Source: Comamonas sp. GB3 AK4-5
Lineage (GTDB): Bacteria > Pseudomonadota > Gammaproteobacteria > Burkholderiales > Burkholderiaceae_C
Reading direction: 5' to 3'
DNA length: 64,000 bases
Assembly (NCBI RefSeq): GCF_041320665.1
Contig: NZ_CP166730.1
Coordinates: 3,844,001-3,908,000 of the forward strand
The notes beneath the pieces are model-generated. The model was not told the origin of the DNA and did no database searches. It was given only the letters and a program-made list of their open reading frames with translations. Within the stretch, counting starts at the first letter, position 1. Every line of letters begins with the position of its first letter. Shown here one piece after another: positions 3,814 to 45,546 of this stretch. A program made the position numbers and the translations under genes.

Positions 3814-5151
3814 CTATCGCGGAATTTCGATGGGTACAAACAAACGCGCCCCACCGCGCTGCACCAGCAGCGCGACAGCGCCATCGGCCTGCCGCACCAG
3901 CTCCGCCATGGCTTCCAGCGTGGCCACCGGCTGACCGTTGAGTGCCAGGATCAAATCGCCCACCATCACGCCGGCACGGGCGGCGGTCACATTGATCTGC
4001 TGGACTAGCAAACCACCTTCGATGCGCAGCAACTGGCGTTCTTTGCCCGTCAGCACCCGCACCCTCAGACCCAGCGGTGCTGCGGGTTCGGGTGCAGCCT
4101 GGGCCATGGGCATGCCCTCCAACCGCTCCACCAGCACCGTCAAGGACAGCGGCACCGCATCGCGCCACAACGACAGCACGGCCGGCTCGTCCGGTGGCAG
4201 ATCGGCAATGCGCTCCAGCGCCTGGGCGGAGTGGGCGATGCGCTCTCCCGCCACCGCCACGATCACATCGCCCGGACGCATGCCTGCACGATCGGCCGCA
4301 CCACGCGGCTGCACATAACTCACCAGAGCCCCCTGGGGTGACGGCAAACGAAACGACGTGGCCAGGGCCTGGCCGACTTCCTGCACAGCAATGCCTATGC
4401 GTCCACGCGTCACCACGCCGCGCTCTTGCAACTGGTGTTTGATGCGCATGGCCACATCAATGGGAATGGCAAACGACAGCCCCTGGTAGCCGCCGCTGCG
4501 GCTGTAGAGGCGGGCATTGATGCCAATCACCTCTCCCCGCAAATTGAACAGCGGCCCCCCGGAATTTCCGGGGTTCACCGCCACATCGGTCTGCAGAAAC
4601 GGCATGTAGTCGGCCCCAGGAAGCACCCGGTTGCGAGCGCTCACAATGCCTGCAGTCACCGAGTTGCTGAAACCAAAGGGCGAGCCAATGGCCAGTGCCC
4701 AGTCCCCCACGGCCGTGGCGTCCGGATCACCGATGCGCACGGCAGGCAGCCCCTGGGCCTCGATCTTGAGCAGGGCAATATCCGATACCGTATCGGAGCC
4801 TACGAGCCGGGCCTTGAACTCGCGCCTATCGGTCAGCCGCACCTGGATATGGCTGCCGCTGGCCACCACATGCGCGTTGGTGAGGATGTATCCGTCATCC
4901 GAGACGATGAAGCCCGAGCCCAGACTGCCCTCCTCCACCCGCGACGACCCCGCAACCGCCGACCTTGCCGGCATATCGGTGGGAGCCACCGAAATATTGA
5001 CCACGGATGGCCCCCAGGTGCGAGCCAATACCGAAAAATCCGACGCATTCCACGACTGAATCGGGGCGCATCCCATGCCGCCGGCCAAGGCCACGGCCAT
5101 GCACAGAACCGCCAGCCATCGATGCAGTGGCAATGGACTGGGCCTGCCCAT
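3814..5151 (-). CDS. HtrA/DegP-type periplasmic serine protease with PDZ domains
   Basis: 445 residues. An N-terminal export signal ends near residue 28; GGMGC is only a weak lipobox. The trypsin-like domain carries the full triad: His94 in TNAHVV, Asp124 in SDIALLK, Ser197 in GNSGGPL. A first PDZ domain (about 240-335) and a second, more divergent one (about 355-440, VGDLILALNGQPV) follow. Such proteases degrade or refold misfolded envelope proteins. Its ATG overlaps the preceding stop by one base (TGATG), so it belongs to the secretion operon upstream and is its last gene. Stress proteases normally have their own promoter, so placement here suggests clearance of stalled adhesin or outer-membrane proteins. 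It could instead serve the cell generally. Confidence 0.92.
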   Translation of the reverse strand: MGRPSPLPLHRWLAVLCMAVALAGGMGCAPIQSWNASDFSVLARTWGPSVVNISVAPTDMPARSAVAGSSRVEEGSLGSGFIVSDDGYILTNAHVVASGSHIQVRLTDRREFKARLVGSDTVSDIALLKIEAQGLPAVRIGDPDATAVGDWALAIGSPFGFSNSVTAGIVSARNRVLPGADYMPFLQTDVAVNPGNSGGPLFNLRGEVIGINARLYSRSGGYQGLSFAIPIDVAMRIKHQLQERGVVTRGRIGIAVQEVGQALATSFRLPSPQGALVSYVQPRGAADRAGMRPGDVIVAVAGERIAHSAQALERIADLPPDEPAVLSLWRDAVPLSLTVLVERLEGMPMAQAAPEPAAPLGLRVRVLTGKERQLLRIEGGLLVQQINVTAARAGVMVGDLILALNGQPVATLEAMAELVRQADGAVALLVQRGGARLFVPIEIPR

Positions 5152-5642
5152 CAGCCCTTGTCCAATAGATGCAATGCCAACTCCATCGCCATGGGCTGGC
5201 GCAAATCGGCCGGCGGGGCTTCACGCAAAGGCTCGGTGCTGAGCAGCTGTCGCAAATCTGCATCGGCTTCCGCCTTGCCCAATGAGTCAAACTCCAGACG
5301 CTCCACCTGGCCTGCGGGCCCCACCCACAGGCGCAGCACCAAGGGCGTCGCCTGCGTCGCAGCGGTCCTGGCACCTGTCGGCACAGCCTGCATGCGTTCC
5401 TGCATCCAGGCATGCAGCCGCAATACGGCCTGATTGCCGGAGTCGGCCAACCTATCTTGAAACTGCTCGCTGACCTGTTGGGCATAGGCCATCCAGTGCG
5501 CTGGAATGGCGGTTGCCGCCTGCGCCGGTGTTTGCGCCAGCGCAGGCGTGGTGGACAAGCTCAGGCCCAGCCCCATGCCACCCAGCACATGGCGCATCAG
5601 CGACCACAGACCCGCCTTGGTGGTCGAGCGTTTTTTTGACAC
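5151..5642 (-). CDS. Small exported protein with TonB_C-like C-terminal domain
   Basis: About 163 residues from a GTG at 5642 preceded by GGGGG at good spacing; an ATG at 5663 is possible but sits beside a strong hairpin. MSKKRSTTKAGLWSLMRHV followed by a hydrophobic run and TTPALAQ is a signal peptide. The last 90 residues (LVLRLWVGPAGQVERLEFDS..LRQLL..PLREAPPADLRQPMAMEL) match the pattern of the TonB-like protein at 10114-10821. There is no transmembrane anchor and no proline-rich linker. It may dock to the same outer-membrane partner or modulate the TonB-like protein. It sits between ybjN-like and htrA-like genes in one operon. No function is established. Confidence 0.75.
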   Translation of the reverse strand: MSKKRSTTKAGLWSLMRHVLGGMGLGLSLSTTPALAQTPAQAATAIPAHWMAYAQQVSEQFQDRLADSGNQAVLRLHAWMQERMQAVPTGARTAATQATPLVLRLWVGPAGQVERLEFDSLGKAEADADLRQLLSTEPLREAPPADLRQPMAMELALHLLDKG

Positions 5643-5663
5643 GGCGAAATCCCCCAAAATCAT

Positions 5664-5696
5664 GCTGCTGCGCCGCCCTGGCAATGGCGCAGCAGC
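5664..5696. other. Intercistronic hairpin
   Basis: Perfect 11-base inverted repeat (GCTGCTGCGCC / GGCGCAGCAGC, loop 11) between the ybjN-like and TonB_C-like genes. There is no T-run on either strand. In the minus-strand transcript it lies just before the ATG at 5663, which argues for the GTG start at 5642. It may affect RNA stability or act as a processing site. Confidence 0.5.
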
Positions 5697-5734
5697 GCTC
5701 CCAAAAAACAGGGCCGAAGCCCTGTCCATCCCCC

Positions 5735-6289
5735 TCAGGCGGCCACCGCTTCAGCGGGCTCTACGGCAGCTGCCGTGGCCTGAGGCTGCTCCAAAGCGCT
5801 GTCCTGCGCAGCGGCAGCAGAAGCTGGTTTGAAGTTACGCAGGTGCTGGAAGAACTGGCCCATCATCTGGCTCCACAGCTGCAGCATCACATCCAGATGC
5901 CCGGGGGTGACGCCACCGGCGACCAGCACATCCATCTCCAGCACCACAAAGTCGCCATGCTGGGCCACACGCGCAAAGCGTTTGCTGCGATGCCAGTCGC
6001 TCACCACACCCTCGGGCAGCGTGCCGCCTTCCACCCGCAACGGGCAGCTCAGGGTCAGGTCCACATATTCACCGGCGCGCAGGGCATTGCCCCACAGCAC
6101 CTGAAAGCCAATGCCCTGGCTGGCACTGTGCAGACGCACCACACCATCGTGCTCTACGGCGGTGACGGCGCAGCCCGAAGCCTTGATGGCTTCGGCCACC
6201 TGCTCGGCATTCATGGAGAAAAGCAGCTCGCCAGGGGTAGCGGCGGGCATGGATTCGGCGGCGTTTTTTGCGGATTGCTTGTTGCTCAT
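5735..6289 (-). CDS. YbjN-like domain protein
   Basis: 184 residues from the ATG at 6289 (an earlier in-frame TTG at 6307 is less likely). The core, about residues 20-145, has YbjN features: FSMNAEQVAEAIKASGC at the start, a central beta-rich part (GIGFQVLWGN..EYVDLTLSCPLRV), and a long helix with LQLWSQMMGQFFQHL. The YbjN fold resembles type III secretion chaperones. The last 35 residues are Ala/Pro/Gln-rich and probably disordered. There is no signal peptide, so it is likely cytoplasmic, unlike its operon partners. A chaperone role for an exported operon product is an inference from fold and position. Confidence 0.8.
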   Translation of the reverse strand: MSNKQSAKNAAESMPAATPGELLFSMNAEQVAEAIKASGCAVTAVEHDGVVRLHSASQGIGFQVLWGNALRAGEYVDLTLSCPLRVEGGTLPEGVVSDWHRSKRFARVAQHGDFVVLEMDVLVAGGVTPGHLDVMLQLWSQMMGQFFQHLRNFKPASAAAAQDSALEQPQATAAAVEPAEAVAA

Positions 6290-6340
6290 ATTCAGGCTCT
6301 GGATCAAAAAATGGGAAGGGAGTAAAGACGCGCCTTGCGC

Positions 6341-7279
6341 TCAGTTGACTTTTTTCAGCAGCGCGTCCAATGCCGCGCTGTCGATGCTGACGCTGGTGGC
6401 CGGCGCCAGCTTGGCCAGATAGGCATTGACCAGTTCCTGCTGCTTCTGCTCGCGCAGGGCCGCCTGCAGACGGGGTTTGACCTCGTCCAGCGTAGCCACC
6501 CGCGCGGGCTGGCTGGCCAGCAACTTGATCACGTGAAAGCCTGATGTCGATTGCACCGGCTCACTCACCTGGTTGGGCTGCAAGGCCGCGACGGTGCTGC
6601 GGATTTCCGGCAGCATCTGCTCCAGCGGCAGATTGCCCACCTCACCACCTTGCGCGGCGCTGCGGGCGTCTTGCGATCGGGCCTTGGCCAGGGCTGCGAA
6701 GTCGCCCTGGCGGGCCTGTCCGGCCAGCTTGACAGCGTCAGCGCGCACGGCTGCAATCGCCGCCGCATCCGCACCAGGAGCGGTCGGCAGATAGATTTGC
6801 GCCACACGGTAAGTGGCCGCCATGTTCAGATTGGGCTTGGCACGTTCATAGGCAGTGCTCACGTCGGCATCGCTGGGAAAGCCCGCAGGCAGTTGCGTCA
6901 CCGACTCCAGATAGCTGCTGCTGACAATGCGGGCCGTGATGTCCTTGATGGCAGCATCGATGCGCGCCTTGACTTCAGGACGATCCGCCCATTTCTTTTG
7001 CTGGGATTCGCGCAGCAGCGCTTCACTGGCCAGGCGCTGGTGCAGCCAGTTCTCAAGGCCTACGCGGTTGCCGTTGACCTGGGTGCGCTCGGCCTCGGGC
7101 ATGCTCTGCAGCAGTCGCTCGACTTCGGCAGGTGCGATGCTGATCGCACCCAATTTGGCAACCGCGCCCGCCGACGCCTGTGCGGAGGGCGAGGCAGCTT
7201 GCACGGCCGCGCTGCCCATCAGTGCTGCCAGCGCCAGGCTCAGGGCACTGCGCATACGGTTGTGACTCAAAACTTTCAT
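6341..7279 (-). CDS. Periplasmic parvulin-type peptidyl-prolyl cis-trans isomerase
   Basis: 312 residues from the ATG at 7279, which has GAGGAAA upstream and a signal peptide (MKVLSHNRMRSALSLALAAL..ASA). An upstream in-frame extension to 7480 was rejected. A SurA/PpiD-like N-terminal helical part (about 40-150) precedes a rotamase domain (about 150-265) with RVAQIYLPT, DFAALAKARSQD, GGEVGNLPLEQMLPEI and GFHVIKLL. It would fold or escort outer-membrane or secreted proteins. It lies in the secretion operon between the coiled-coil and ybjN-like genes, suggesting service to the adhesin, its transporter or the porin. The 208-base gap to the preceding gene holds an open frame beginning MRASGVPMFAPLLLLLPLE; I could not decide whether a short protein is made. 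Confidence 0.9.
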   Translation of the reverse strand: MKVLSHNRMRSALSLALAALMGSAAVQAASPSAQASAGAVAKLGAISIAPAEVERLLQSMPEAERTQVNGNRVGLENWLHQRLASEALLRESQQKKWADRPEVKARIDAAIKDITARIVSSSYLESVTQLPAGFPSDADVSTAYERAKPNLNMAATYRVAQIYLPTAPGADAAAIAAVRADAVKLAGQARQGDFAALAKARSQDARSAAQGGEVGNLPLEQMLPEIRSTVAALQPNQVSEPVQSTSGFHVIKLLASQPARVATLDEVKPRLQAALREQKQQELVNAYLAKLAPATSVSIDSAALDALLKKVN

Positions 7280-7487
7280 GGATTTCCTCTTTGTTGGGGC
7301 ACCGGATACGGCCCCATAGCCGCTGCGCTGCAGATACCGGCGCCTTGCCGCATCGCGCTCCTCGCCGTATTGAGCGCATAGCTGCATGTCATCCCTGTGA
7401 CCCCAGGCCCAAAGGCCTAGCGATTCCAGCGGCAAAAGCAGCAACAGGGGAGCGAACATGGGGACGCCAGATGCACGCATAGCGATC

Positions 7488-8228
7488 TCAGGGCTTGGCT
7501 TCCGGTCCGATATGCAATGTGTCGCCCGTCTCCTGCGCTTGCTGCAGGGTCACGGCCTGGGCATCAAACTTGCCCTGGTACAGGCGGTCGCCATACTGCT
7601 GGGCAATTTGCTCGTACTTCACCCGGCTTTGTGCCGCAAAGGGCTGGCGCGCCGCCAGCAGCGTATTCAGGTCCATCTTTTCATAGGCCTGGAGCACCTC
7701 ATGGCCCAAGGCGTACAGCTGCTGGTTCTTGGCTTCGCACTGGGCGATGGCGGTCTGCTGCAGCTTGGCATCGCTGGCTAGGCGCTGGCGCTCCGCCTCT
7801 GCGGTACGTGCCATTTTCAGCAGCTCGTCGTAGGCCAAGCGGAACTGCTGTACCTGGGCATTGGCCTTGGCTGTGGCCTCCCTGGCCTGCTGCACGTCGC
7901 TATCGTGACGGCCGCGCGCATCACGCTCACGGCTCAGTTGCTGGCGGCTTTGTGCCAACTCGGCCTTCAAGGCCTCGACGTCGGGCGATGGCGCGGCCTT
8001 GGCCGTCCCCGCCACACCGGCTCCACCTGCCGCAGCACCGGACTTGAGCAGGGCCAGCTCGTTGTTGGCCTGTTGCAGCTGGCTGGTCACCGAACGCAGC
8101 TGGGCACGCAGGCGCTCTTCCATGCTTTGCTCCTGGGCATGTGCCGTGGTCAGCCACGTCGCACAGGCCAGTGCCACCAAGGCCATGCAGACATGGGCTT
8201 TCCCCCCCTGGGCTTTAAACAGCTTCAT
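7488..8228 (-). CDS. Exported coiled-coil protein of unknown function
   Basis: 246 residues. ATG at 8228 with GAAGGA six bases before it. The signal peptide ends at about residue 31 (TTAHAQ). Residues 35-165 are Gln/Ala/Glu/Arg-rich heptad-like sequence predicting a long coiled coil (RLRAQLRSVTSQLQQANNEL), with a short Gly/Ala hinge in between. The C-terminal 80 residues are more globular and contain a Cys (QCEAKNQQLYALGHEVLQAY) and VKYEQIAQQYGDRLYQGKFD. It lies 12 bases after the porin gene stop, so the two are coupled. It may be a periplasmic spacer or a partner of the porin. I do not recognise a named family. Confidence 0.75.
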   Translation of the reverse strand: MKLFKAQGGKAHVCMALVALACATWLTTAHAQEQSMEERLRAQLRSVTSQLQQANNELALLKSGAAAGGAGVAGTAKAAPSPDVEALKAELAQSRQQLSRERDARGRHDSDVQQAREATAKANAQVQQFRLAYDELLKMARTAEAERQRLASDAKLQQTAIAQCEAKNQQLYALGHEVLQAYEKMDLNTLLAARQPFAAQSRVKYEQIAQQYGDRLYQGKFDAQAVTLQQAQETGDTLHIGPEAKP

Positions 8229-8239
8229 GTGTTTTCCTT

Positions 8240-10057: not shown

Positions 10058-10113
10058 GGTTGAAACAGAAATAGGGGGAGAAGCAAAAGAGCGGCCAAGA
10101 ACTTGCAAAAGGC

Positions 10114-10821
10114 TCAAGGGCGGCGGCCGTTCATGGCAACGCGCATGGGGAAGCGCATGGAGGGCGGTGGTCGTTCATCCATGACCTGGAGTTCGCGCAG
10201 CATGGCCAGCACCAGCTCTTCGGTCTTGTCGTTGCTGCTGCCCTGGGCAAGCTGCACCTTGGTGATACGACCATCTGCCGCCAGCCACAGGTCAACGCGC
10301 AGATCGCTGAACACCAGGCTGCGGGTGCGGGGATCACGCGCAAGGGCCTGCTGCAGCTTGGCCGAGATGTAGCGCTGGTAAGAGCCGGCACCCAGCCCAC
10401 CACCACCGCCGGTCATGCCCCCTCCGCCGCCTACGGCGATGCCGTCGGTGCCGGCCTGGGCATCTGCATTCATCGTCATGGGGTCACCCATATCCTGGGA
10501 GGGGCTGGGCGCGGCATCGTCCATGGGCTTTTCCATGGACTCGACCGGCGTGGGCTCGACCTCGGTGATCTGGGGCTCCACCTTTTCCGGCTCGGGCTCA
10601 GGCAGCTTCTCAGGCTCTGGCGGCGGTGGTGGAGGCGGCGGCAACATCACCATCGACGTTGCGGCCACCTCGCGTTTGGTGCTGGCCGTACCGGCCAGCA
10701 AATACCACAGCACCGCCAGCGCCACCAGGCCCACAGCCACACCCATCGCCCAACCGCCCCAACGACGCCACCAGGTGGCGGCCGGCGTGGGCTGCGGTGC
10801 ATTGGAATTGCGCATAGTCAA
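10114..10821 (-). CDS. TonB-like energy transducer of the secretion locus
   Basis: 235 residues. A TTG start at 10821 has GAGGAG six bases upstream; the ATG at 10815 is spaced less well. Order: short cytoplasmic tail, one transmembrane helix (about 27-47, GVAVGLVALAVLWYLLAG), proline-rich linker (about 60-95, with a run of eight Pro then EPEKLPEPEPEKVEP), glycine-rich stretch (about 130-147), and a TonB_C-like domain (about 148-235, VDLWLAADGRITKVQL..). The linker is shorter than in classical TonB, so its reach to the outer membrane may be limited. It follows exbB and exbD directly, so it should form a proton-driven complex with them. Confidence 0.85.
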   Translation of the reverse strand: MTMRNSNAPQPTPAATWWRRWGGWAMGVAVGLVALAVLWYLLAGTASTKREVAATSMVMLPPPPPPPPEPEKLPEPEPEKVEPQITEVEPTPVESMEKPMDDAAPSPSQDMGDPMTMNADAQAGTDGIAVGGGGGMTGGGGGLGAGSYQRYISAKLQQALARDPRTRSLVFSDLRVDLWLAADGRITKVQLAQGSSNDKTEELVLAMLRELQVMDERPPPSMRFPMRVAMNGRRP

Positions 10822-10831
10822 TTGGCACTCC

Positions 10832-11248
10832 TCACGCGGCAGGCTTGCCGGTCACGAGGCCAATCTGGTTCAGGTCGATGCGGCGCAGCAGGTCCAGCAC
10901 CTCGACCACCTTGGCGTACTGCACGGCCGAGTCGCCGCGCACGATGACGGGGAAGTCCGGCGACAGCGCCTTTTCGGTGCGCAGACGCTCTTCCAGCTCG
11001 GGCAGGGTGACCGGATAGGCATCCAGGAACACGCGGCCGTCGTTGTCGATGGAAATCGCCTTGGTCTTGGGCTTTTCCAGGGCCACCGAAGCGCTGGCCT
11101 TGGGCAGATCCACCTTGATGCCGGGAATGCTGGCATTGCTGGTCAGGATGAAAATCACCAGCACTACCAGCAGCACGTCCACAAAGGGCGTGATGTTGAT
11201 GCCCCCGGAGCGCTTCTTGGTGCCGAATTTGGCAGCTGCATTGGCCAT
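10832..11248 (-). CDS. exbD: ExbD/TolR-family biopolymer transport protein
   Basis: 138 residues, normal length. A short cytoplasmic tail is followed by one transmembrane helix (about 21-40, ITPFVDVLLVVLVIFIL) with the proton-carrying Asp24 intact, then a periplasmic domain (about 45-135) including VIVRGDSAVQYAKVVEVLDLLR. It couples proton flow through an ExbB channel to work on a TonB partner. It begins 3 bases after the exbB fusion stop and ends 10 bases before the tonB-like start, so the three are one translational block. The gene symbol denotes the family; this is a locus-specific paralogue rather than the housekeeping iron-uptake copy. Confidence 0.93.
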   Translation of the reverse strand: MANAAAKFGTKKRSGGINITPFVDVLLVVLVIFILTSNASIPGIKVDLPKASASVALEKPKTKAISIDNDGRVFLDAYPVTLPELEERLRTEKALSPDFPVIVRGDSAVQYAKVVEVLDLLRRIDLNQIGLVTGKPAA

Positions 11249-11251
11249 GGC

Positions 11252-13015: not shown

Positions 13016-13069
13016 GACAGGATGTCTCCGAGGACTCGAGAAAACGAACTACGAGGAATCAGCGCCGGC

Positions 13070-15494: not shown

Positions 15495-15570
15495 GCGCGC
15501 CCTCTTCCATCAAAACAGAGGCATGCGGGCCGGATGGCGCACGCACGCTCCAGCCTTCCCCAAAAGCAAA

Positions 15571-15605: not shown

Positions 15606-15630
15606 TGGGTGCGCGCTAGAACGTGCTTAG

Positions 15631-15749: not shown

Positions 15750-15750
15750 C

Positions 15751-24700: not shown

Positions 24701-27700
24701 GAGCCCGAGAGGCGCAGATAAGCAGCGCTCAGGCGTACCTGGCTGTCGCGGGCGGCCTGGGTCGAGAGACCTATGCTGCTGGCCGTGAGGTACAGCGCCT
24801 GCTTCATGTGCAGATCAATGCTGCCATCGAAGCTCAGCAAGCCATTGGCATACAACGCTGCCGTGTCAAAACCGCCAGCCTGGATTGCATCTACGCCAAA
24901 ACGAGCCTTGCCGTAAACCAGGCTGTCATGCTTCTGACCGGCCTGCACGCTGTCATCCAGCCCGCTGCCACCAAACACCTGCTCGATCACCAACTCGCGC
25001 GGAACGCGCACAGCATCATCGACGGCGGCGCCTTTTTTGCTGAAGCGTTCAACGCCCAGGTACACCGGTGTTTCCAAATTGATGGCCAGTGTTCCGCCCT
25101 TGGCGCCTGCGCCACCGGCATGGGCCGAGAGCTGGCCGTCGATGAAAAGGCCGTTGGCGGCACTCAGCGCAATGGTCCCGCCGTTGCCGGCCAGGGAGAT
25201 ATCGCCCTGGCCTGGTACATGAATCAGCCCGCTGGCACCCGAGGCGTTGAGCACCGCGCCCTTCTTGACCACGAGGAAAGCGTCTATGGCGTCGACATTG
25301 CGCGACTCCAGGCTGTATTTCGCACCCAGCTCTATGCTGCCGCCGCTTTGCACCACGCCATAAGAATGGCCATTGCCATCCAGGGCGGTATGGGCCTGGC
25401 CAGACACGTCGAGAACGGCATGCTCGCCAATCCACAACGAACGTGCGTTGGGCACGCCAGCCGGACGGTTCAGATCCGTGCCAGAGCCGAAGTCCCCGCC
25501 CAGCACCGCAATCCGCCCACCATGCGCCCGCAGCTCACCCTCAATGGTGATCTGGGCATTGCCAGCCAAGCGGATGCTTTGCCCCGGATCGACCTTCAGC
25601 TCTGCGCCCTTGTCGATCAGCAACGAAGCTGTTTGGACCACGGAGCCGGCGTTGAGCGCAAGGCTGGCGCCTGCGCGCTGCTTCATCTGTTTGCGGGCGG
25701 GGTCTTGCACAAACAACGGCGCCTCCCAAACCTCCAGCACCTTGGAAGGATCAGCGCCAGTCTGCATACCCTGAGCCTTTGCCGAATCGATCCGCAGCAC
25801 CGGCATGGACACTTCCAGCTTGGCGCCTTCGGCGACCGTCAGCCCACCCACCGCATTCACCTCGTAATGCGAAAAACCTTGTTTGAAAAGGCCTGTGTCC
25901 AGCAGCAAACCACCACTGCCACCAACTTGCCCGCCGATCACCACGGCCTCGCCGGTCTGCAGCATCATGGTGCCGCCTCCCTTGACGCCATGCCCCCGCA
26001 GCTCACCCTCCAGCACCAACTGCGTGGCTCCACCGACTCCTTGTGCAGGAATACCGGTAGCCAGCGTCACATCGCCACCTTTTCCGCCACTCAGGCTGCC
26101 CTTTGCATTGAGCGCGGCTCCCGAAGACACATCAATCAGGCTGGCATCACCCAGCTTGACGTCGCCAGAGCTACGCAGCACCACACGACCGCCATTCACA
26201 AAAGGCAGGCTGCTGTTGTCCGCATCGAGCACCTGATTGCTCCACAGGCCGCGAGCGTCCAGCGTCACATGCTTGCCCACCGTCACTTGCCGGGTATGGC
26301 CGCTCGCTGCGACACCGCCTATGGACTGCTCCTGCCACCCCGAACCGCTGCCGGTGTGCTGCGTCACCATGTCACCAAGCTGAATGCTGCCGCCACGCGC
26401 CGTGAGATTGGCCTCCACAGCCACATCGCTGGCATGCAGCGCAATCTGCCCCCCTGGCGTGACCTGCAAGGCTTCGTCTACGGCAATCCGGTCCTTGGCA
26501 TAAACCTGCAATGCCCCCAGATTCTGCGCGTTGATCCAGGCTGCATCCAGATGCGTTCCAGCCCCGGGCTGCCCCCCCAGGGTGACATCAGACATGACTG
26601 CCGCAGGTGACTCACGCAAGCCCTTGGTATTGGCGTCATAAACAGGCGTCAAGGCGCCGATGATGAGCTGGCCGCGTTGTGCCACCGCGGTCTGGGCCTG
26701 CCGGTATCCGTCCAGCGCTGCATCGCGGCCTCGTGTCTGGCGCTCGCCCTGGAAGGTGCTGCCATCCACCGCCCCCTCCAGTTGGGCCCCTTGCGTGGCA
26801 ATCACCAAACGGCCCGCATCGCGGCCCACGGTGTAGCCATTTTCCAGGCGACGCCCCGCCGCAATCAGCGGCGCGGCATAGGTTTCCGTCACGCCCCAGC
26901 GTGCATGGGTGGACTCAAACCCCTGGTACAGGCCTGTATAGCGCAGATCACCCGGCGCGGAAGAGGCGTTGTAAATGCGGCCATCAGCCCCCTTCAAATA
27001 GGTCTGGTTCACATAGCCGGTCTGCACATCCAGCGAGCCCCCCGCCAGATTGATCAGGCTGCCCTGGTGGGTGTGGACCTGGCCGCCCGCAAATTGCACG
27101 GTGCCGCCCTGCGCCATCCATTCACCAATGCCATGGCCCGTGATGCCCAGATACCCGCCCACTTCCAGCAGACCACCTGCGGTGTACCAGCGATCCGTCT
27201 CGTAGCCGTTGGTGCCAGCCGGCACAAACACCAGGTCGCGGCGGTCTACCCAGATGTTCTTGTTGTTAAGCCCTTTGGCGTCGCGGTTGACGGAGGCATC
27301 ACGCTGCTCGTTGCCCTGGACGTTGATGAGCACATTGTTGGACTCCATGTCCACGCGCACGCCCACGGCACCCGAGACATCGATGACCGCGCCACTGGCC
27401 ACATCTGCCTGCGCTGCCTTCACCAGCACCTGGCCGCCCGTGGCCACCGTCAGCGAATCGGTACGGAAATCCACAGCGCCGGCGCTGTCGATCAGCACCA
27501 GCGACTGATCGCGCCGATGCTGCACGCCGTCACCGGCTTTGTCCGACTCCTTGATCAAGGTCTCGCGCTGGGCGTCCAGCGCCGTGGTCGCAGACTCCTC
27601 GAGCAGCACGCTGGTCACGCTGCCCTCTTCCAGCGCGATGTGCCCACCGGCATCACCTGCGGCATTGCTCAGATGCACCGTGCCCCGCGTATGCACCGAG

Positions 27701-28920
27701 GTGCTGGCAACGGCCACCCCTTGCTGGCGCACATCGTGCCCGGTGAGTGTGATGTCGCCCGTGCTCGCCTGGATCAGGCCGCTATTGCGCACCAGGCCCG
27801 CTGCCGAACCCGGATTTCGCAGGCTGCCCACCACATTGCCGCGCGTGCTGGAGTTCTGGTTGGCGTCCGAGCCCTGGCCGCGCTGGATCACAAAGGCATC
27901 ACCTGCCGCGAGCACGGTCTGGCCTGAGGCCGTGGTGATCTCGCCCGCGTTGTGCGTCTCGCGGCCGACCAGCAGCACATAGCCGCCGCCCTCGGTCACG
28001 CTGGCGGGCTTGTGGGTTTGCAGCCTGGCACCCGCTTCCACGACCACGTCGGCCGTGGCAGCGCCGTGGCTGAAGCTGCTGGCGTTGCTGCTCAGGTCAT
28101 TCGCAAAGGTCGGAATATAGGCCGTACCCTGGGCGTCGCTGAACAGGCCTTTTTTGAACTGGGCATCCGACATGCCGACGGCCGCCGCCGCCAGGTTGCG
28201 GGTGTTGATCTGGCTGGAGCCGCTGAAGATGATGCCGTTTTGGTTGACGATGAGCACCGTGCCGTCGCCCTTGATCTGCCCCTGGATCTGCGAAGGCCGT
28301 GCATTCGGATCATTGACACGGTTGAGCACCGCCCAGTCTTTTTGCTGCAAAAACTCCAGCGTGGTGTTCTTGCCCACGTTGAAGCTTTCCCAGTTCAGAA
28401 TGGCCTTGTCCGCGGTCTGCTCGACCGCCACATGGGTCTTGCCATCGGCCGTGGTCTGCTTGGGTGCGTTGGCGTTGATCCAACCCGCAGTGAGGCTGTT
28501 GCTGTCTATCTTCAGACCGCCTTCGCCCAGCCCATCCGGCACGCCACCACCTGCAGCCAAGGCCGCCGCACGCGCAGCAGCCTGGGCCGCCTGCTGGGCC
28601 GCGATACCGCGCGCTGCCAGGTTGAGATTGGTGATGGAGCGCACCAGTTGCTCATTGGCCTTGTTCTGCTGCGCGGCCGGGCTGCTCGAAGACATGGCTG
28701 GCAGACCATTGGGCAACATGCCGGTTTGCGCCGCCGTGTTCTGCACCGCGCCCTTGGCGGAAAACCAGCCGGGGCTGAAGGCCGTCTGCGCACTGGCTTG
28801 CACCATGGTGCCTCCGGCCACCAGGGTCAGGGCAATGGCCTGTGCGATGGGTGCCCGTCTAAACACACGGTAGCGGGTGCGTTGAGTGGCTTGATCCTTG
28901 CTGCTTGCGCGTGTGTTCAT
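15751..28920 (-). CDS. Giant filamentous haemagglutinin-family adhesin (TpsA exoprotein)
   Basis: 4,389 residues from the ATG at 28920; an in-frame GTG at 28950 only lengthens the extended signal peptide (..RRAPIAQAIALTLVAGGTMVQASAQ). The TPS secretion domain (about 130-290) is recognisable from NWESFNVGKNTTLEFLQQ, ILNRV-like VLNRVND, and VNQNGIIFSG, where NQNG replaces the usual NPNG. Thousands of residues of Gly/Asn/Asp/Val-rich imperfect repeats (GGDV.., GTVAL.., LRLSA..) indicate a beta-helix. The last ~120 residues (SGNVNLAALQVVNAENIQVQ.. to the C-terminus) resemble the DUF3739-type end of this family. It should be exported by Sec, then through the TpsB at 13070-14698, to form a surface filament. 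It follows the STN-sigma-FecR genes by 263 bases, a spacing that could contain a sigma-dependent promoter. No frameshift was seen. Confidence 0.93.
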   Translation of the reverse strand: MNTRASSKDQATQRTRYRVFRRAPIAQAIALTLVAGGTMVQASAQTAFSPGWFSAKGAVQNTAAQTGMLPNGLPAMSSSSPAAQQNKANEQLVRSITNLNLAARGIAAQQAAQAAARAAALAAGGGVPDGLGEGGLKIDSNSLTAGWINANAPKQTTADGKTHVAVEQTADKAILNWESFNVGKNTTLEFLQQKDWAVLNRVNDPNARPSQIQGQIKGDGTVLIVNQNGIIFSGSSQINTRNLAAAAVGMSDAQFKKGLFSDAQGTAYIPTFANDLSSNASSFSHGAATADVVVEAGARLQTHKPASVTEGGGYVLLVGRETHNAGEITTASGQTVLAAGDAFVIQRGQGSDANQNSSTRGNVVGSLRNPGSAAGLVRNSGLIQASTGDITLTGHDVRQQGVAVASTSVHTRGTVHLSNAAGDAGGHIALEEGSVTSVLLEESATTALDAQRETLIKESDKAGDGVQHRRDQSLVLIDSAGAVDFRTDSLTVATGGQVLVKAAQADVASGAVIDVSGAVGVRVDMESNNVLINVQGNEQRDASVNRDAKGLNNKNIWVDRRDLVFVPAGTNGYETDRWYTAGGLLEVGGYLGITGHGIGEWMAQGGTVQFAGGQVHTHQGSLINLAGGSLDVQTGYVNQTYLKGADGRIYNASSAPGDLRYTGLYQGFESTHARWGVTETYAAPLIAAGRRLENGYTVGRDAGRLVIATQGAQLEGAVDGSTFQGERQTRGRDAALDGYRQAQTAVAQRGQLIIGALTPVYDANTKGLRESPAAVMSDVTLGGQPGAGTHLDAAWINAQNLGALQVYAKDRIAVDEALQVTPGGQIALHASDVAVEANLTARGGSIQLGDMVTQHTGSGSGWQEQSIGGVAASGHTRQVTVGKHVTLDARGLWSNQVLDADNSSLPFVNGGRVVLRSSGDVKLGDASLIDVSSGAALNAKGSLSGGKGGDVTLATGIPAQGVGGATQLVLEGELRGHGVKGGGTMMLQTGEAVVIGGQVGGSGGLLLDTGLFKQGFSHYEVNAVGGLTVAEGAKLEVSMPVLRIDSAKAQGMQTGADPSKVLEVWEAPLFVQDPARKQMKQRAGASLALNAGSVVQTASLLIDKGAELKVDPGQSIRLAGNAQITIEGELRAHGGRIAVLGGDFGSGTDLNRPAGVPNARSLWIGEHAVLDVSGQAHTALDGNGHSYGVVQSGGSIELGAKYSLESRNVDAIDAFLVVKKGAVLNASGASGLIHVPGQGDISLAGNGGTIALSAANGLFIDGQLSAHAGGAGAKGGTLAINLETPVYLGVERFSKKGAAVDDAVRVPRELVIEQVFGGSGLDDSVQAGQKHDSLVYGKARFGVDAIQAGGFDTAALYANGLLSFDGSIDLHMKQALYLTASSIGLSTQAARDSQVRLSAAYLRLSGSERREVDGSIMPNPVFGSGNVNAGGGQLGVPLLAKNAHLQLEGSMVDIVGEVGFGTRSHIILNGPTNLAVERDAFGTVRIASQGDLRLRSASLYSPGDTTLAAAQIYGGGNVTVGLVSKLNEWGNVLRSYDQERRLDIERIGTSLPAMPYSVFGNMGFTAATINQGGVLRAPLGSITLGDAGSNGYTGVVNLLPGSITSVSAKGLAMPYGGTVDGLTYNYNGKDAVYVGIGGEPSIEFKTHALNAQDGAVIDLSGGGELTGAAFLQGRGGSTDARINPLVQMAEGRFVLPGLATNPVYAIVPGAQAGYAPVASEKGAGDPAIGRQITIGEGVPGLPAGTYTLMPSTYALLPGAFRVELNGLASSHIAFGSTTAMRNGSWSTSAQLGIANTGYSDALPTQVILTAADTLRTYSQYNETSYAEFALQQAAREGAPAPLLERDGKALNLMLISSTAAGSFQLPQLRFAAQVQGTPADQGKGTVLRVLGGTNFEILAQDAAPTAGFTGISVHADMLNQVGASRMEIGGRLSSTYIDSQTGSLQHANTIAIGGAETHNIIVRSGAQLEAADVFLMSGRTDGGITLEQGASINTLGKGRTGYGAEQGYIYQPGPVSVLAVSNNQLDLLAPAAPNPNDPRVGAGAIELGVCAVGAHCSGDTRLYSEGTIATATDNRFVLGDAVRYGTRNLSLALGGVNIGSAQALESAAARGALPAGMVLNQQVLDRLLLGDTSTGAPALEALSLTARESVNFFGDVTLSTYGADGKSALQRLVLGTPAIYGYGDAGDVARIHTDTLIWTGSRTPAGSIVAGGPGTGQGQLVVDAREIVFGYGPKTQPDTVRDHDRLALGFASMHLNASERVTATHKGSLAFYATQGAWDPVAKAYTRSGGDLFISTPLLTGTAGSINKITAGGDIHVSGSGAAAPDNATLAAALGAELALDSKGGQLVLDTAVLLPSGKLSLSAQGDVTLNAGAQLELAGRKIDFFDVSKYSWGGDVALQSRAGDVVQADASHINLSAEHNRAGKLTVAATQGHIALTGQMDGHSSGHYDAGGTLVPYLAGRIELHGQSIDDFAGLNHRLTEGGVFGGRSFRLGQGDLNLGNELKAHEINVSLDQGQLTVNGRIDASGEQAGSIRLSAKNGVTLGNAAVLDASASVLRVDSYGKPIEAPNRAVIEIDSGTGLLAIASGARMDLRVAGSAQNFGTVALNAARVGSNDVAIDAAGTVAIAGAKSIHVNAFITDNTAAAGTETTTDGKSYQVIDQDYLNRLNDDSRTFINAALANGTLMNGKLAGLRAYQDQFHLRPGVEVVANLAVNPDGNLHVDGDIDLSGHRYASVNPHTQRTLVHGSGEAGALVLRAQGDLDVFGSISDGFDGSRLKPSFDSVGWLLTKGQQPWASDVVVPRDGMVTLDAGTVFNSGKVLNYELPINAMQMAAGTLLPAKAALAQPLSLARGTVLSAAVHDANGQLLYAAGSVLADAVTLPAQTQLDAGFRLPGAARMAAMTWPAGVALPAPPSGNAVVLSSAIDLKKGAFIPSETDVKLPGGVDSVDLRPRDAQGNQGRIWALAPMLAAGSQSFDISLVAGADTAAADRLASLPGGAGHLRLSDMHYGMGGERSAVPGTGSPAVFRYSNSFPAALLADLEMYASWGYEVPTIVPGALVGARDIELLLEIGLIWDSMSNLNEYGHGEAVSVVTPATPPDYVFMVKPAREQLPSVVRTGTGDLRLVSAKNIATSSLFGVYTAGTPSAALAAAGASDPYNQPRSVFNGSVLGEFGGSFEGLVNGGSESLYQAWYPEAGGNLLLRAGGNISGDSIGRTSGALRSDALGYRTERITGTASVGNWLWRQGSGSVAGVDDVALPTAWWINFGTYVPSREESPYNVFATMPRFTGFTGFGTLGGGNLLLEAGGNAGMLQARGDHGAYYINRSSGLNLAVASTGRVGSDGKLVQTGGGDLDIRIGGGFNSDATLNAFTGGNSAPQANSFAVGGTHRLDLNGSFTNLRGALRMQAGAVGSIAQSFGGGDPKESRPYDAFTASNASTAGGPVLVLGDAGVRIESRGDLVLGNVTDAGRVPQYHGGTPFSANGKSYAGNGWSWFSLWTPATAVDLLAAGGNLTPTMAMHDRHKRTDSLITDLNFMYPSVLRAASASGNVYYGKFVKSITAGENNDPFQPAVTLAPSPVAEQFVAHGTGQLELLARGSIYAQGAGFSVSGADPTALPNPFTPGFVGRGDPAWFGLEVIHNVSPNTMAAGPMLSGALKGDVEQRYPLFAFTPPTASGHVYVGQEPARYYAVEGDLVGLRTGSIIYRGRKSSGKPGSLPTWYDGGGALAMRAGRDIVNSGTTLGAYDPVDSAYGTPGGALDWYNIAYFADPSAPPKIDTQGFGSMVGNLIVHTSADDVSVVQAGRDIRFSSFKIAGPGLLDISAGRNVYMADKAELRSLGAVVNVKPGDRSSGAAISVAAGLGQHGADWTAFADRYLDPANLANLSLPLADQPGKAVRIYDGSITLAQWLKHEFGYTGDEAGASAFLAAKQVELDGVRNGALAAGSTAANRDLAREYKLESQLHLVNWLTERFGGANGRGLHFDAASMDARSFFAALPPEQRSAFLRNVYYAELKASGREYNDVDGKRYGSYLRGREAIETLLPSKDAQGKAIAYEGDLTMFSSARYFKQFVDVVGTWRPQPGVKYLSEAEWIAAGSPGYDTPYYKINDAGIHTDFGGNINLLVPGGRTLIGVDGGYPPGAGSGVLTQGEGDINIFSKSDILMGQSRVFTTFGGNILGWSAEGDINAGRGAKTTVVATPQRRVYDNIGNVMLSPSTPNTGAGIATLNPIAEVPPGDIDLIAPLGTIDAGEAGIRVSGNVNLAALQVVNAENIQVQGKAVGIPMVAAVNVGALSNASAAASQATAAAQDVLQRERAAARQAMPSVFTVRVLGFGNESMEGGGKLPQPSAATSKPAGVAAYDPQSALQLVAVGKDVDPLQAARLNPEQRRQLQQ

Positions 28921-29183
28921 CTGAGTTCTGCCCAATGGTTGAGTCGACACCGTTCGGCTGCCCTCCCATATCGGCCAGCCTCATCGATGCAGGAGACCTG
29001 GCTGCACGTACACAAGCGTTTGCAGCAAAGCCCCTCCGATATGGCTACAACGAACTGTTCAACTCAAACCCGCAAGAGATTCCGCAAAATTTCTGCAACG
29101 CCTTGGCATGCATGGGCAGCACAGCATCTCTGTCCACGCGGCCTCACCGCAGAACATGAGACAGGACATGGCCCAGCAACCAC

Positions 29184-30164
29184 CTAACTCAGCAGCAGCA
29201 AACCGCCCGGCAATGCACGCGCCTTCAATCCGAAGACATGCTGCAGCTGTATGAGGGCAAGATCCAGCGACGCGATGGCGAAGTGGCCCGTGACATTTTT
29301 GGTGCGCGCAGCAGCATTGACCAGCACTACGCGACCAGGGCGATAGCGGTTGATCTCATCCAATGCATCACCCAAAGGGGTCTGCTTGAAGACCAGCAGG
29401 CCACGTCGCCAGGACGAAAGCACCTGCGGATCCACTGCATTCACGCGGCTGACAGAGACCGCGTCATAAATGACTTGCTCGTTGGCCTTCAGCGTCTTGC
29501 CGCCCAGGGGGTGCGACAAATGCACCTCCCCGGCAATACAGCTCACGCAAACCTGCTGCGCCACATGGCGGACTTCAAATTGCCCGTATGCAGCCGCCGC
29601 ACTGCCCACACCTGCCCGCACGAAAAAAGGCTGGCCCGAGAGCGTCAACTCAATAGCAGCCTCTCCGCTGACTAGGTCCAGGCCCACCACCTCATGTCCT
29701 TTCACCTGCGGGCTCGCATTGGTTCGGGTGTTCAAGGTGAGATGGACATGCTCTCCCAGGTCTATGGCGCGCTGCTCCCCCGTACCGGTTCGGTAATCTG
29801 CCCGCCATTCGGAAGATGTGGGCCAAAGTCCCCAGGGGGAGTAATTCACAGCGACCAATGCCACGACCGCCGTGCTGGCTGCCGCTCCGAGGAAGGCTCG
29901 ACGCCCGCGCAGCCCATGCTCATACGCCCCCACCAAATCTGCTTGAGACTGCAGCAATGCGCCTGCTGGCTGCTTCAGCCTGTCCCAACGCCGCTTGGCT
30001 TCCTGGTAAGCGCTTTGATGCGCTGCACTGGCATGCACCCATTGCCGAAAACCTCGGGCATCTTCAGCGCTGGCAACACCGGAATGCAGCACACGCAGCC
30101 ACTGCCAGGCCTGCTGCAGCAGCATCTCGCGGGAGGCATCCCGATGGTTCTCTGGTGTTTTCAT
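29184..30164 (-). CDS. FecR-family anti-sigma factor / signal transducer of the adhesin locus
   Basis: 326 residues from the ATG at 30164 (MKTPENHRDASREMLL); an in-frame start at 30275 is less likely. The cytoplasmic N-terminal domain (about 8-70, AWQWLRVLHSGVASAEDARGFRQW) is the DUF4880-like sigma-binding part. One transmembrane helix follows (RRAFLGAAASTAVVALVAVNY). The periplasmic FecR domain (about 115-220, YRTGTGEQRAIDLGEHVHLTLNTRT..GEVHLSHPLGGKTLKANEQV) and an STN-like C-terminal region (LDEINRYRPGRVVLVN..) complete it. It should hold or activate the sigma factor encoded 128 bases upstream in response to a periplasmic signal. Confidence 0.92.
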   Translation of the reverse strand: MKTPENHRDASREMLLQQAWQWLRVLHSGVASAEDARGFRQWVHASAAHQSAYQEAKRRWDRLKQPAGALLQSQADLVGAYEHGLRGRRAFLGAAASTAVVALVAVNYSPWGLWPTSSEWRADYRTGTGEQRAIDLGEHVHLTLNTRTNASPQVKGHEVVGLDLVSGEAAIELTLSGQPFFVRAGVGSAAAAYGQFEVRHVAQQVCVSCIAGEVHLSHPLGGKTLKANEQVIYDAVSVSRVNAVDPQVLSSWRRGLLVFKQTPLGDALDEINRYRPGRVVLVNAAARTKNVTGHFAIASLDLALIQLQHVFGLKARALPGGLLLLS

Positions 30165-30292
30165 TGTGTCGTGTCTAGCTGCCGGCGCTGCAAAACGCAT
30201 TTTTGAATCATGCCGGCAGGCACGCCATAGCGCCGCCGGTCTTTTGATCCACTTCATGCAGTTGCAACGAACCACGGCCGGGGAAACCGCAA

Positions 30293-30811
30293 TTATTTAC
30301 GCCCCAGAAGGTCCATATGTGCATCAAGCACATCATGGGCACGCCGAAGTTCATATTCGACGGTTCGCAGCGAAGTCCCCAGCCGACCGGCCACATCTTT
30401 TTGCGCCAGACCCTCCCAGTGCACCAGCACCAAAATGACACGACGGCGCTCCGGCATCAATGCCATGATTTGCGACAGGGCGCTGAGATCCGAGCGCGCC
30501 TCAGCCGTTCGCTGTGGACAGGGCGCGGGATCCTCCATCTCCTCCAACAGCGCATCCACCTCTTCGCCCGACAAAGAGCGGCGCTGCCTGCGCTGAATAT
30601 CGGCCGCAATATTCGTCGCCACGCGCATCAGATAGGCTCCAGGCTGCTCAATCAGTCGGCGATCGTCTTTGTCTTTGACCCGTACCCAGGTGTCATGCAA
30701 GGCATCACTGGCCAAATCGGCATTGCCCAGCACCAACGTCAGGCGCCGCTTGAGACTGGCATAGCTCTTGTTGAGATAGTCCAGCAAAACCGGTGGTGCT
30801 TCACCCGACAT
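30293..30811 (-). CDS. ECF sigma factor (FecI-like) of the adhesin locus
   Basis: 172 residues from the ATG at 30811, supported by GGAGG nine bases upstream (30829 is an alternative). Sigma region 2 (about 10-75, LASDALHDTWVRVKD, PGAYLMRVATNIAADIQRRQRR) and region 4 (about 105-165, MPERRRVILVLVHWEGLAQK, then a helix-turn-helix LGTSLRTVEYELRRAH) are clear. It starts 2 bases after the STN-protein stop and is followed by fecR, so the three are co-expressed. The natural target is the adhesin operon downstream, giving self-regulated surface-filament expression; the target promoter was not identified. Confidence 0.93.
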   Translation of the reverse strand: MSGEAPPVLLDYLNKSYASLKRRLTLVLGNADLASDALHDTWVRVKDKDDRRLIEQPGAYLMRVATNIAADIQRRQRRSLSGEEVDALLEEMEDPAPCPQRTAEARSDLSALSQIMALMPERRRVILVLVHWEGLAQKDVAGRLGTSLRTVEYELRRAHDVLDAHMDLLGRK

Positions 30812-30813
30812 GC

Positions 30814-31560
30814 TCAGTGCCCTCCCCATACCGGGCCACAGGCTGCAGCCCCCGGCGCATCAGGTGTCAGCGACATCGTCAACGGCTGCTGCACCACCTC
30901 GGCCGGCGGTGCGCTGCCAAGGCGCAGTCCGCGCAAGGCATGGAGCAGCAGGGCATCGCGCTGTGCATCGCCGCTGCTGTCCAGCAAACGCGGTGACACC
31001 AGCTGCCCCTCTGTATCCAGCTGAAAACGGAACAAAGAGTGGTAGCTGCCGGGTGCAGTACGCGCGTCAGCGCACAAAGCCCTCAAGACGCCCTGCTGGA
31101 TCTGGCCCGCATAGGCACTTTTTTGCAAACGCTGCAACATATCCATTGCGTTTGCACTGCCTGTGTCTGCCTCGGCTTTGAGCACATAAGTCTCACCAAA
31201 CTCGGAGCGCAAACGCTCGGCCCTCAAACCCGTGCGCTCCAGCAGTTGACCCAAAGCCTGCTCGGCGCTCAGGCGGCCACGCACTGCGGAGGACATGCGT
31301 CCGTCAAGCATGCTCGCATCAAAAAGCGCAGGCTGCCCGGAGATCTCACCGAACCGATGCAGTGCGACCGCCAGCGGCTGTGCTGCAATATCAAAATCAA
31401 ATACATGGGCCGTCGAGGTTGCAACACCTTGGGCTTGCGGGACGCGCGAAGTCTGCATGGGAAAGCTACTTATCTGCGGCGCTGCCTCGGCATATGCACA
31501 CTGCATGCACACCATGGCAACCCAAGGAATCCAGTTGCCCCCTCCAGAATGCCCCACCAT
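30814..31560 (-). CDS. Exported STN-domain protein with TonB_C-like C-terminus
   Basis: 248 residues; ATG with GGGAG just upstream. After an N-terminal export signal (to about residue 27, CAYAEAAP), an STN domain occupies about 52-127 (FDFDIAAQPLAVALHRFGE, LSAEQALGQLLERTGL, YVLKAEA). The C-terminal part (about 145-235, FRFQLDTEGQLVSPRLLDSS..LRGLRLGSAPPAEV) has the same pattern as the TonB_C-like proteins at 5151 and 10114. STN domains normally sit at the N-terminus of TonB-dependent receptors and pass the signal to FecR. Here the domain is free of any barrel and comes first in the STN-sigma-fecR-adhesin series. It is probably the periplasmic sensor of the relay. Confidence 0.85.
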   Translation of the reverse strand: MVGHSGGGNWIPWVAMVCMQCAYAEAAPQISSFPMQTSRVPQAQGVATSTAHVFDFDIAAQPLAVALHRFGEISGQPALFDASMLDGRMSSAVRGRLSAEQALGQLLERTGLRAERLRSEFGETYVLKAEADTGSANAMDMLQRLQKSAYAGQIQQGVLRALCADARTAPGSYHSLFRFQLDTEGQLVSPRLLDSSGDAQRDALLLHALRGLRLGSAPPAEVVQQPLTMSLTPDAPGAAACGPVWGGH

Positions 31561-45545: not shown

Positions 45546-45546
45546 C

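Follow-up and report, generated by a model that had tools for sequence, protein, structure and literature searches.

Why should a locus for the two-partner secretion (TPS) of a giant protein also carry genes for a motor of the Tol or Ton kind and for a porin, and on what does this motor act at the outer membrane? The question is raised by a stretch of 64,000 nucleotides of Comamonas sp. GB3 AK4-5 (contig NZ_CP166730.1, positions 3844001-3908000; the genome is a single contig of 5.05 Mb), which is called the window in what follows. In the genomes sampled, the motor-porin module marks one clade of two-partner secretion, in which the giant secreted protein, TpsA, carries a DUF3739 domain. Comparison across genomes favours the porin, more than the transporter TpsB, as the outer-membrane partner of the motor. 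The favoured reading, to which a probability of roughly 0.38 is given, is that the motor pulls on or holds a stalked porin so that the giant TpsA is assembled or kept at the cell surface.

According to the open reading frames and their Pfam matches, fourteen genes of one orientation run along the minus strand from 31560 to 3814. A first-pass annotation, made from the letters alone, had them in the right order and at roughly the right coordinates, under names that fit the Pfam families. They are given below together with the gene at their far end; Vre names and PA numbers refer to the counterparts in Pseudomonas aeruginosa, ECF denotes the extracytoplasmic function type of sigma factor, and E values are expectation values.

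30814..31560, minus strand: VreA-like periplasmic receptor with an STN domain and a TolA/TonB-type C-terminal domain (Pfam STN 28.3 bits, 0.1 bit under the cut-off of 28.4; TonB_2 24 bits)
30293..30829, minus strand: ECF sigma factor, VreI-like (Pfam Sigma70_r4_2 2e-11, Sigma70_ECF 1.1e-05)
29184..30275, minus strand: FecR-type sigma regulator, VreR-like (Pfam FecR 4.7e-11, DUF4880 1.3e-08)
15751..28950, minus strand: giant TpsA (Pfam TPS 1.1e-20 near the N-terminus, DUF3739 2.9e-39 near the C-terminus)
13070..14752, minus strand: TpsB transporter (Pfam ShlB 1.1e-21, POTRA_2 4.3e-13; alignment with CdiB)
11252..13015, minus strand: motor subunit in the ExbB position, with signal peptide, DUF2341, LamG/ConA-type domain and TolQ/ExbB domain (Pfam, structure model, Foldseek)
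10832..11248, minus strand: ExbD/TolR motor subunit (Pfam ExbD 3.5e-29)
10114..10821, minus strand: force transducer (tonB) with a proline-rich, TonB-like middle and a TolA/TonB_2-type C-terminal domain (Pfam TonB_2 18.7 bits, below the cut-off of 22)
8240..10117, minus strand: Porin_5 porin, a predicted 16-strand barrel with an N-terminal helical stalk (Pfam Porin_5 5.1e-194)
7488..8228, minus strand: coiled-coil protein, predicted to be exported, in the PA0697 position (no Pfam or NCBIfam family matched)
6341..7480, minus strand: PpiC-type prolyl isomerase, PA0699 type (Pfam Rotamase 2e-18)
5735..6307, minus strand: YbjN-like protein, PA0698 type (Pfam YbjN 3.9e-11)
5151..5729, minus strand: TonB_C-like accessory protein of 192 residues, predicted periplasmic, with a TonB/TolA-type C-terminal domain (no Pfam match; kinship to the C-terminus of the locus TonB by profile comparison only, hhalign to the locus TonB family 2e-12)
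3814..5151, minus strand: HtrA/Deg-type protease, accessory (Pfam Trypsin_2 3.5e-35, two PDZ_6 stretches)
2854-3783, plus strand: LysR-type gene, convergent with htrA

The TpsA protein is 4,399 residues long if translation starts at the first GTG and 4,389 residues, the length originally given for it, if it starts at the ATG. Its gene is flanked by gaps of 233 and 998 bp, the larger of which separates it from tpsB; five open reading frames in this larger gap had no Pfam match (not every frame there was scanned). The distances that follow are 54 bp between tpsB and exbB, 3 bp between exbB and exbD, 10 bp between exbD and tonB, -4 bp between tonB and the porin gene (taking an upstream TTG as the porin start), 11 bp from there to the coiled-coil gene, 7 bp to the isomerase gene, 33 bp to ybjN, 5 bp to the TonB_C-like gene and -1 bp to htrA. 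Because of these gap sizes tpsA stands separate, and tpsB through htrA form one close-packed run with gaps of at most 54 bp, as had been proposed for this unit.

Because its gene order matches that of the published PUMA3/pdt locus of P. aeruginosa (PA0674-PA0701), the locus is, by its gene families, a relative of that locus, and the system is not new; the comparison rests on published family names and order and not on the P. aeruginosa sequences. The P. aeruginosa region is described as holding vreA, vreI, vreR, hxc genes, tpsA, the PA0691 gene, tpsB, exbB2, exbD2, the tonB homologue PA0695, PA0696-PA0698 and the PpiC-type isomerase PA0699, and its VreA (PA0674) combines an STN domain with a TolA/TonB-type domain, the same two-domain layout as the receptor in the window (PMC2729926). 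PA0696 is described as a putative porin, PA0697 as structurally like channel-forming colicins, PA0698 as YbjN-like and PA0701 as LysR-like, and the exbB2-exbD2-tonB4 system is called still uncharacterised (PMC7035377). A single promoter is reported to transcribe phdA, pdtB, exbB2D2, tonB4 and PA0696-PA0701, and a separate one pdtA (PMC4971064). Other Pseudomonas, Burkholderia, Rhodopseudomonas and Janthinobacterium are reported to share this gene set, sigma relay included (PMC2729926, PMC4971064, PMC7035377), and the placement of the hxc genes varies between species (PMC2729926). The first-pass annotation had presented the locus as a unit with its own sigma relay. It is a conserved unit, but not a novel one, the order, the co-expression and the odd receptor being already in print. 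For the motor or the porin, no function in secretion was recognised among the open-licence papers that literature searches listed.

The window shares with PUMA3/pdt the VreA-like STN/TolA-type receptor, the ECF sigma factor and FecR-type regulator beside TpsA and TpsB, and the run of tpsB, exbB, exbD, tonB, porin gene, gene in the PA0697 position and YbjN and PpiC genes, with a LysR gene at the far end. Unlike PUMA3/pdt, the window copy has PpiC before YbjN, its LysR gene is convergent, and a TonB_C-like gene and htrA have been added. No hxc type II secretion system (T2SS), lapA or phdA was found in the window copy, and no T2SS family among 20 open reading frames scanned between 33.5 and 63.5 kb.

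How firmly are these genes tied to one another? When genome contigs were scanned with the ExbB protein as query, 127 relatives were found, and 80 of these 127 loci, with ExbB proteins of 48-95% identity, were examined with flanks of up to 10 kb and matches at E 1e-4. The counts are lower bounds, since contig ends cut some loci, few flanks are long enough for a complete TpsA and small, divergent proteins may escape detection; at least 9 kb downstream of ExbB is included in 73 of the 80. TpsB is present in 80/80 loci, ExbD and TonB in 79/80 each, the porin in 77/80, YbjN in 73/80, the coiled-coil protein in 71/80 and the isomerase in 42/80. ECF (39/80), FecR (38/80) and STN (35/80) proteins and the TpsA C-terminus (39/80) and N-terminus (28/80) follow, and then the TonB_C-like protein (16/80), HtrA (10/80) and LysR (3/80). 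The gene order is not due to chance, because the match directly upstream of ExbB is TpsB in all 80 loci, with exbD, tonB and the porin gene after it; the spacing of tpsB and exbB is 21-206 bp in 75 intact pairs. It had been stated beforehand that a module occurring mostly without tpsA and tpsB elsewhere would speak against the unit; these loci, and the wider sample below, show no such pattern. Periplasmic quality control, which had been taken for a fixed part of the system, is not one: HtrA and the TonB_C-like protein are minority additions and not core parts, nine of the ten HtrA-bearing loci belonging to Burkholderia or Paraburkholderia and one to a Burkholderiales metagenome bin, and the isomerase is found in little more than half of the loci.

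As the 80 loci are the closest relatives and are biased to sameness, an even class sample of 370 genomes was used, together with a phylum sample of 254 genomes that overlaps it. DUF3739 is above its cut-off in 23/370 class genomes; G197, whose match is below the cut-off in a frame of 699 residues with an internal TAG, was left out. All 23 have a DUF2341 match (29/370 overall) and all 23 a full-length Porin_5 protein (24/370 overall), where full length means E <1e-100, a threshold set once the matches were seen to leave a gap between 1.4e-120 and 1.8e-34. Any Porin_5 match is found in 54/370 genomes, 30 of which have weaker matches only, mostly to the barrel alone. The TPS domain is present in 130/370, including all 23 with DUF3739. 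Among the 107 TPS genomes lacking DUF3739, one (G345) has a full-length porin and one (G111) a DUF2341 match, the latter in a frame of 4,506 residues that is not ExbB-sized. Fisher p for DUF3739 against the porin is 1e-35 over the 370 genomes and 1e-24 within the TPS genomes, shared ancestry being ignored. In the phylum sample, the ten DUF3739 genomes and the ten with a full-length Porin_5 protein are the identical set. The 25 DUF3739 matches above the cut-off in the class sample all lie in open frames of at least 3,325 residues.

G345 has the locus too, with TpsB, the TpsA N-terminus, ExbB, ExbD, the porin and the coiled-coil protein on one contig. On its contig C199 (L117, L133) the TpsA frame looks interrupted, and the last part of TpsA continues into the ExbB-like region as a single open reading frame of 2,656 codons; this may be a draft error, decay or a fusion of TpsA with the motor. 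Six genomes have DUF2341 and no DUF3739: in G059, G111, G126 and G146 the frames are of 1,093 to 4,506 residues, in G187 the frame is of 234 residues, and in G307 the match lies at a contig end. The stretches fetched from G187 and G307 gave no ExbD or porin match.

The distance between the genes is also informative. At most 5 kb separates DUF2341 from the porin in 21 of the 23 genomes, the exceptions being G008 and G086; in G086 the DUF2341 match is in a frame of 1,632 residues elsewhere, and an ExbB end at the start of the porin contig abuts ExbD, TonB and the porin. In 13 of the 23, DUF2341 is found within 1.5 kb downstream of DUF3739, so that exbB follows tpsA and its neighbor is tpsA, not tpsB. 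In all five of these 13 that were fetched (G019, G102, G232, G091 and G365) tpsB lies upstream of tpsA. Thus, in the distant genomes the porin usually remains beside the motor and tpsB often does not.

Three variants may be mentioned. In the stretch fetched from contig C105 of G525 (L134-L136), two tpsA genes, both with a separate STN-ECF-FecR set ahead of them, accompany a single motor operon. This genome also has a third DUF3739 match on a different contig, so a single motor may here work for several TpsA proteins. Contig C3 of G102 (L102) has a second run of ExbB, ExbD and TonB with a DUF2341 match, beside a weak opposite-strand match to the TPS N-terminus and with no porin match within the stretch fetched, a variant that could separate the porin from the TPS roles. 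On contig C80 of G365 (L107) a run of ExbB, ExbD, TonB, porin and coiled-coil protein had no TpsA or TpsB match in the 20 kb fetched, and the other DUF3739 match of this genome is on another contig.

The Comamonas genome itself carries the system twice, once outside the window. It has six TPS-domain proteins, two of them with DUF3739, and eight genes of the MotA_ExbB family, two of which are DUF2341 fusions; the four TPS genes lacking DUF3739 are all more than 50 kb from any MotA_ExbB gene. The second copy (C1:3788144-3825974; L016, L017) starts at 3788144 with TpsB, ExbB, ExbD, TonB, porin, coiled coil, YbjN and isomerase. After the motor operon come T2SS genes of the GspG, secretin and GspE families and genes for two PBP_like_2 proteins (we take this family to include phosphate-binding proteins), and then a TpsA of 4,458 residues, whose gene ends at 3825974, about 22 kb from the window copy. 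The second copy is closer than the window copy to the Pseudomonas order. Elsewhere in the genome a TolA-like gene (the TolA label is ours) adjoins another MotA_ExbB-family gene, and a frame of 293 codons at C1:4243264-4243473 (L129), outside both loci and known by its profile score only, has a TonB_2 match.

What kind of motor is it? The ExbB protein of the window scores 129.1 bits with the NCBIfam tolQ model (cut-off 221) and 64.3 with exbB (cut-off 206.2), and that of the second copy 146 and 85.5. The window ExbD scores 97.1 bits with tolR (cut-off 127.3) and 61.6-68.1 with the ExbD models, of which ExbD_1 gives 61.6 (cut-off 152.95); the ExbD of the second copy reaches 88.6 with tolR, and neither exceeds 68.1 with an ExbD model. 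The solved chains nearest to the ExbB protein are TolQ, which in Foldseek is also the best match of the model of the ExbB half. The transducer family matches solved TolA with E 0.0014 and TonB with E 0.23, both weakly, and its hhalign score is 61.5 to the TolA of the same cell and 47.0 to its canonical TonB. It is on these TolQ, TolR and TolA scores, and on the proline-rich, TonB-like middle of the transducer, that the motor is described as Tol-like with a TonB-like arm, its subunits appearing nearer to TolQ, TolR and TolA than to ExbB, ExbD and TonB. The motor genes that had been read as an ExbB-ExbD-TonB energiser are there, but by score their kinship leans to Tol.

The motor differs from both systems in several features. 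Unlike Tol-Pal, to which it is nearest in the sequences of three subunits and in the fold of the ExbB half, it stays below the equivalog cut-offs and has a DUF2341-LamG extension and a proline-rich transducer; no TolB or Pal was named among the proteins identified. Unlike the Ton system, its ExbB and ExbD are below the respective cut-offs, and no plugged TonB-dependent receptor is among the locus genes. In the ExbB protein, which the first-pass annotation had as a fusion without naming the added part, the N-terminal half has a signal peptide, followed by DUF2341 and a sandwich of the ConA-like fold that among enzymes comes nearest to an arabinanase domain; between domains the model is of low confidence (predicted template-modelling score 0.40). 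Matches to neurotoxin binding domains, which Foldseek listed for this model, were read as the common ConA-like sandwich fold, of no functional meaning. DUF2341 on such motors has been noted before, no function being assigned to it (PMC12505986).

The porin model has a mean predicted local distance difference test score (pLDDT) of 74, with 16 long barrel strands by count, no plug domain and N-terminal helices at residues 76-87, 92-121 and 145-165. Residues 136-143, which lie between the second and third of these helices and in or next to a low-confidence stretch, read G-D-V-R-V-P-Y-I. In 91 porins, of which 75 come from the fetched loci and 14 from class and phylum genomes, the others being those of the second copy and the window (G189 was excluded, as its frame was misread), V138 is kept in 88/91, V or I at 140 in 91/91, P141 in 81/91, Y142 in 90/91 and I or V at 143 in 91/91. 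Because the match of the weaker Porin_5 relatives mostly starts no earlier than profile position 98 (in G247 there is a 5-122 piece as well), the stalk and the motif seem to belong to the linked porins. A conserved, strand-like motif in what is predicted to be a flexible periplasmic linker would fit a docking site for a TonB/TolA-type domain. The best solved fold match is OmpM1 (Foldseek 2.9e-14; template-modelling score 0.70 on the target and 0.38 on the query, the stalk being partly of low confidence), and the top four chains have 13-14% identity. OmpM, the outer-membrane attachment porin of Veillonella, is a barrel on an N-terminal stalk (PMC10628300), a layout that the model suggests for the locus porin too; unlike OmpM, the locus porin has no SLH domain on the stalk.

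The transporter differs from its relatives at the N-terminus. With its TPS domain, ShlB-type barrel and POTRA_2 domain, the locus belongs with the classical systems FhaB/FhaC and CdiA/CdiB in type Vb, and is unlike them in the short N-terminus of TpsB, the DUF3739 near the C-terminus of TpsA and the dedicated motor and porin. An estimated 16 residues lie between the signal peptide and POTRA1 of the window TpsB, too few for an H1 plug helix and linker. Among 85 estimates from 86 aligned TpsB proteins, made with a crude signal-peptide rule and unproven start codons, the median is 22 residues; 80 are at most 46 and five are 53 to 108. By eye, this stretch comes to roughly 50 residues, with a helix-like part, in the three other TpsB proteins that the Comamonas genome encodes. 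A TonB box was sought in TpsB and rejected, since the 21 N-termini inspected out of the 86 are variable, often rich in alanine and proline, and share no motif. In two CdiB proteins H1 has 26 and 29 residues and the linker about 20, and secretion is reported to persist without both (PMC7644211). Because CdiB still secretes when it has lost H1 and linker, the short N-terminus is best taken as a feature of the clade and not by itself as a sign of an energy need; nor does the absence of H1 exclude this TpsB from two-partner secretion.

By combining these observations, it is possible to outline how the system might work. A sigma relay of the VreA-VreI-VreR type accompanies the giant DUF3739-type TpsA, which TpsB would export. 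The tpsB operon also encodes a Tol-like, proton-driven motor made of a TolQ-like subunit with a periplasmic lectin-fold extension, a TolR-like subunit and a TolA/TonB-like transducer. The transducer may dock where the periplasmic linker of the porin carries the conserved VxVPYI-type motif and exert force at that point, and this force might hold or organise the outer membrane around TpsB. As a result, the giant TpsA would be assembled and retained at the surface. The SiiAB proteins of Salmonella SPI4 offer an analogy, set beside the locus by description: they form a proton channel that serves one giant adhesin, SiiE, and control its retention at the surface (PMC6272769), in a type I system and not in two-partner secretion.

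Force on the porin is favoured because the motor accompanies this type of TpsA and not the other TPS genomes, because in distant genomes the porin is usually beside the motor while tpsB is often elsewhere, and because the porin has a candidate docking motif, whereas none was seen in TpsB. Several points weigh on the other side. Insertion mutants in PA0695 and PA0696, with VreI overproduced, are reported to have wild-type virulence in zebrafish embryos (PMC2729926), and type V translocation into liposomes has been reported without external energy (PMC5422565). Among the nearer relatives tpsB is at least as constant a neighbor as the porin gene, the motor gene of G008 is 29 kb from the porin, and in the class sample the position of tpsB was read in the five fetched genomes. 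No curated equivalog cut-off, Tol or Ton, is reached, and the TolA match is weak. In the porin model residues 1-73 and 122-139 have a pLDDT under 50, and the first half of the motif falls in the second of these stretches; the motif could instead cap a coiled-coil trimer. The OmpM match is one of fold only, Porin_5 being the sole Pfam match at E 0.01, with no SLH domain.

The strongest competitor, although still an unlikely one, is energised or gated nutrient uptake, in which TpsA would be a surface capture protein or scaffold and the porin a channel worked by the motor within a phosphate-scavenging programme. Such a role would agree with the induction of the P. aeruginosa locus by phosphate starvation via PhoB, beside a phosphatase-secreting T2SS (PMC4971064, PMC7035377), with the T2SS genes and PBP_like_2 proteins between motor operon and tpsA in the second copy, with the precedent of HxuA/HxuC (PMC5422565) and with the porin-type barrel that is predicted. 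That barrel has no plug, however, unlike TonB-dependent receptors, and no T2SS or PBP-like family was found among the window frames scanned. Less favoured, and improbable, is a motor that works directly on TpsB, or on TpsA inside it, with proton-motive force driving or completing export. The constant adjacency of tpsB and exbB in the 80 loci and the great length of TpsA speak for driven export, and a median of 22 residues before POTRA1, against roughly 50 in other TpsB proteins, suggests that gating may differ. The TpsB N-termini inspected share no TonB-box-like segment, however, exbB directly follows tpsA in the 13 class genomes mentioned, and CdiB secretes without H1 and linker, so a missing plug implies no need of energy.

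It is more doubtful still that the two halves of the locus are merely co-regulated, TPS working alone and the porin and motor forming an envelope stress or tether system under the same sigma factor. A single regulon with separate promoters for pdtA and the pdtB operon (PMC4971064), single mutants that are not attenuated in zebrafish (PMC2729926) and the resemblance of the porin fold to the OmpM tether would all be compatible with separate working, but the linkage is kept across distant genomes and is absent from the other TPS genomes. It persists even in G019, G232, G091 and G365, in which a search at E 1e-4 of a few kb upstream of tpsB gave no STN, ECF or FecR relative. The same absence of relay relatives beside the module is hard to reconcile with a motor that serves signalling by powering VreA or by reporting the state of export through a shared TolA/TonB-type domain, which is very improbable. 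The C-terminal domains of VreA, the tonB product and the 192-residue protein are indeed related in profile comparisons (E 5e-12, 2e-12 and 8e-10). VreA was considered as a special partner of the locus TonB on the strength of this match and rejected, the TolA of the cell being matched by VreA about equally well, and VreA is reported to be dispensable for expression of the regulon at low phosphate (PMC4971064).

A broader form of the favoured reading, in which force falls on the porin, may be put forward with considerable reserve, as it is rather unlikely to hold in full. The whole DUF3739 clade would then not be energy-free at the outer membrane, and would need its own Tol-like motor, with the transducer pulling the stalked porin so that the giant protein is exported, assembled or held, and with the lectin-fold extensions anchoring the motor in the periplasm. 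A private proton motor in every sampled genome of this clade makes the energy question testable by gene removal. If force on the porin is borne out, the exbB2-exbD2-tonB4 system of P. aeruginosa gains a candidate partner, the porin, and a candidate motif.

Some minor observations may be added. Rfam and tRNA scans of the window gave no matches, and comparison of upstream sequence for sigma-factor promoters and pho boxes gave nothing firm. A role in defence was considered and set aside: among five proteins scanned, only the coiled-coil protein had PADLOC matches, which were weak. Two plugged TonB-dependent receptors are encoded elsewhere in the window, at 46187-48952 and 60652-63303. The first of these has an STN domain and stands beside a FecR gene (48916-49950) in a minus-strand stretch (40202-49950) that also holds PepSY, HlyD and MacB-type ABC genes and looks like an ordinary uptake locus with cell-surface signalling.

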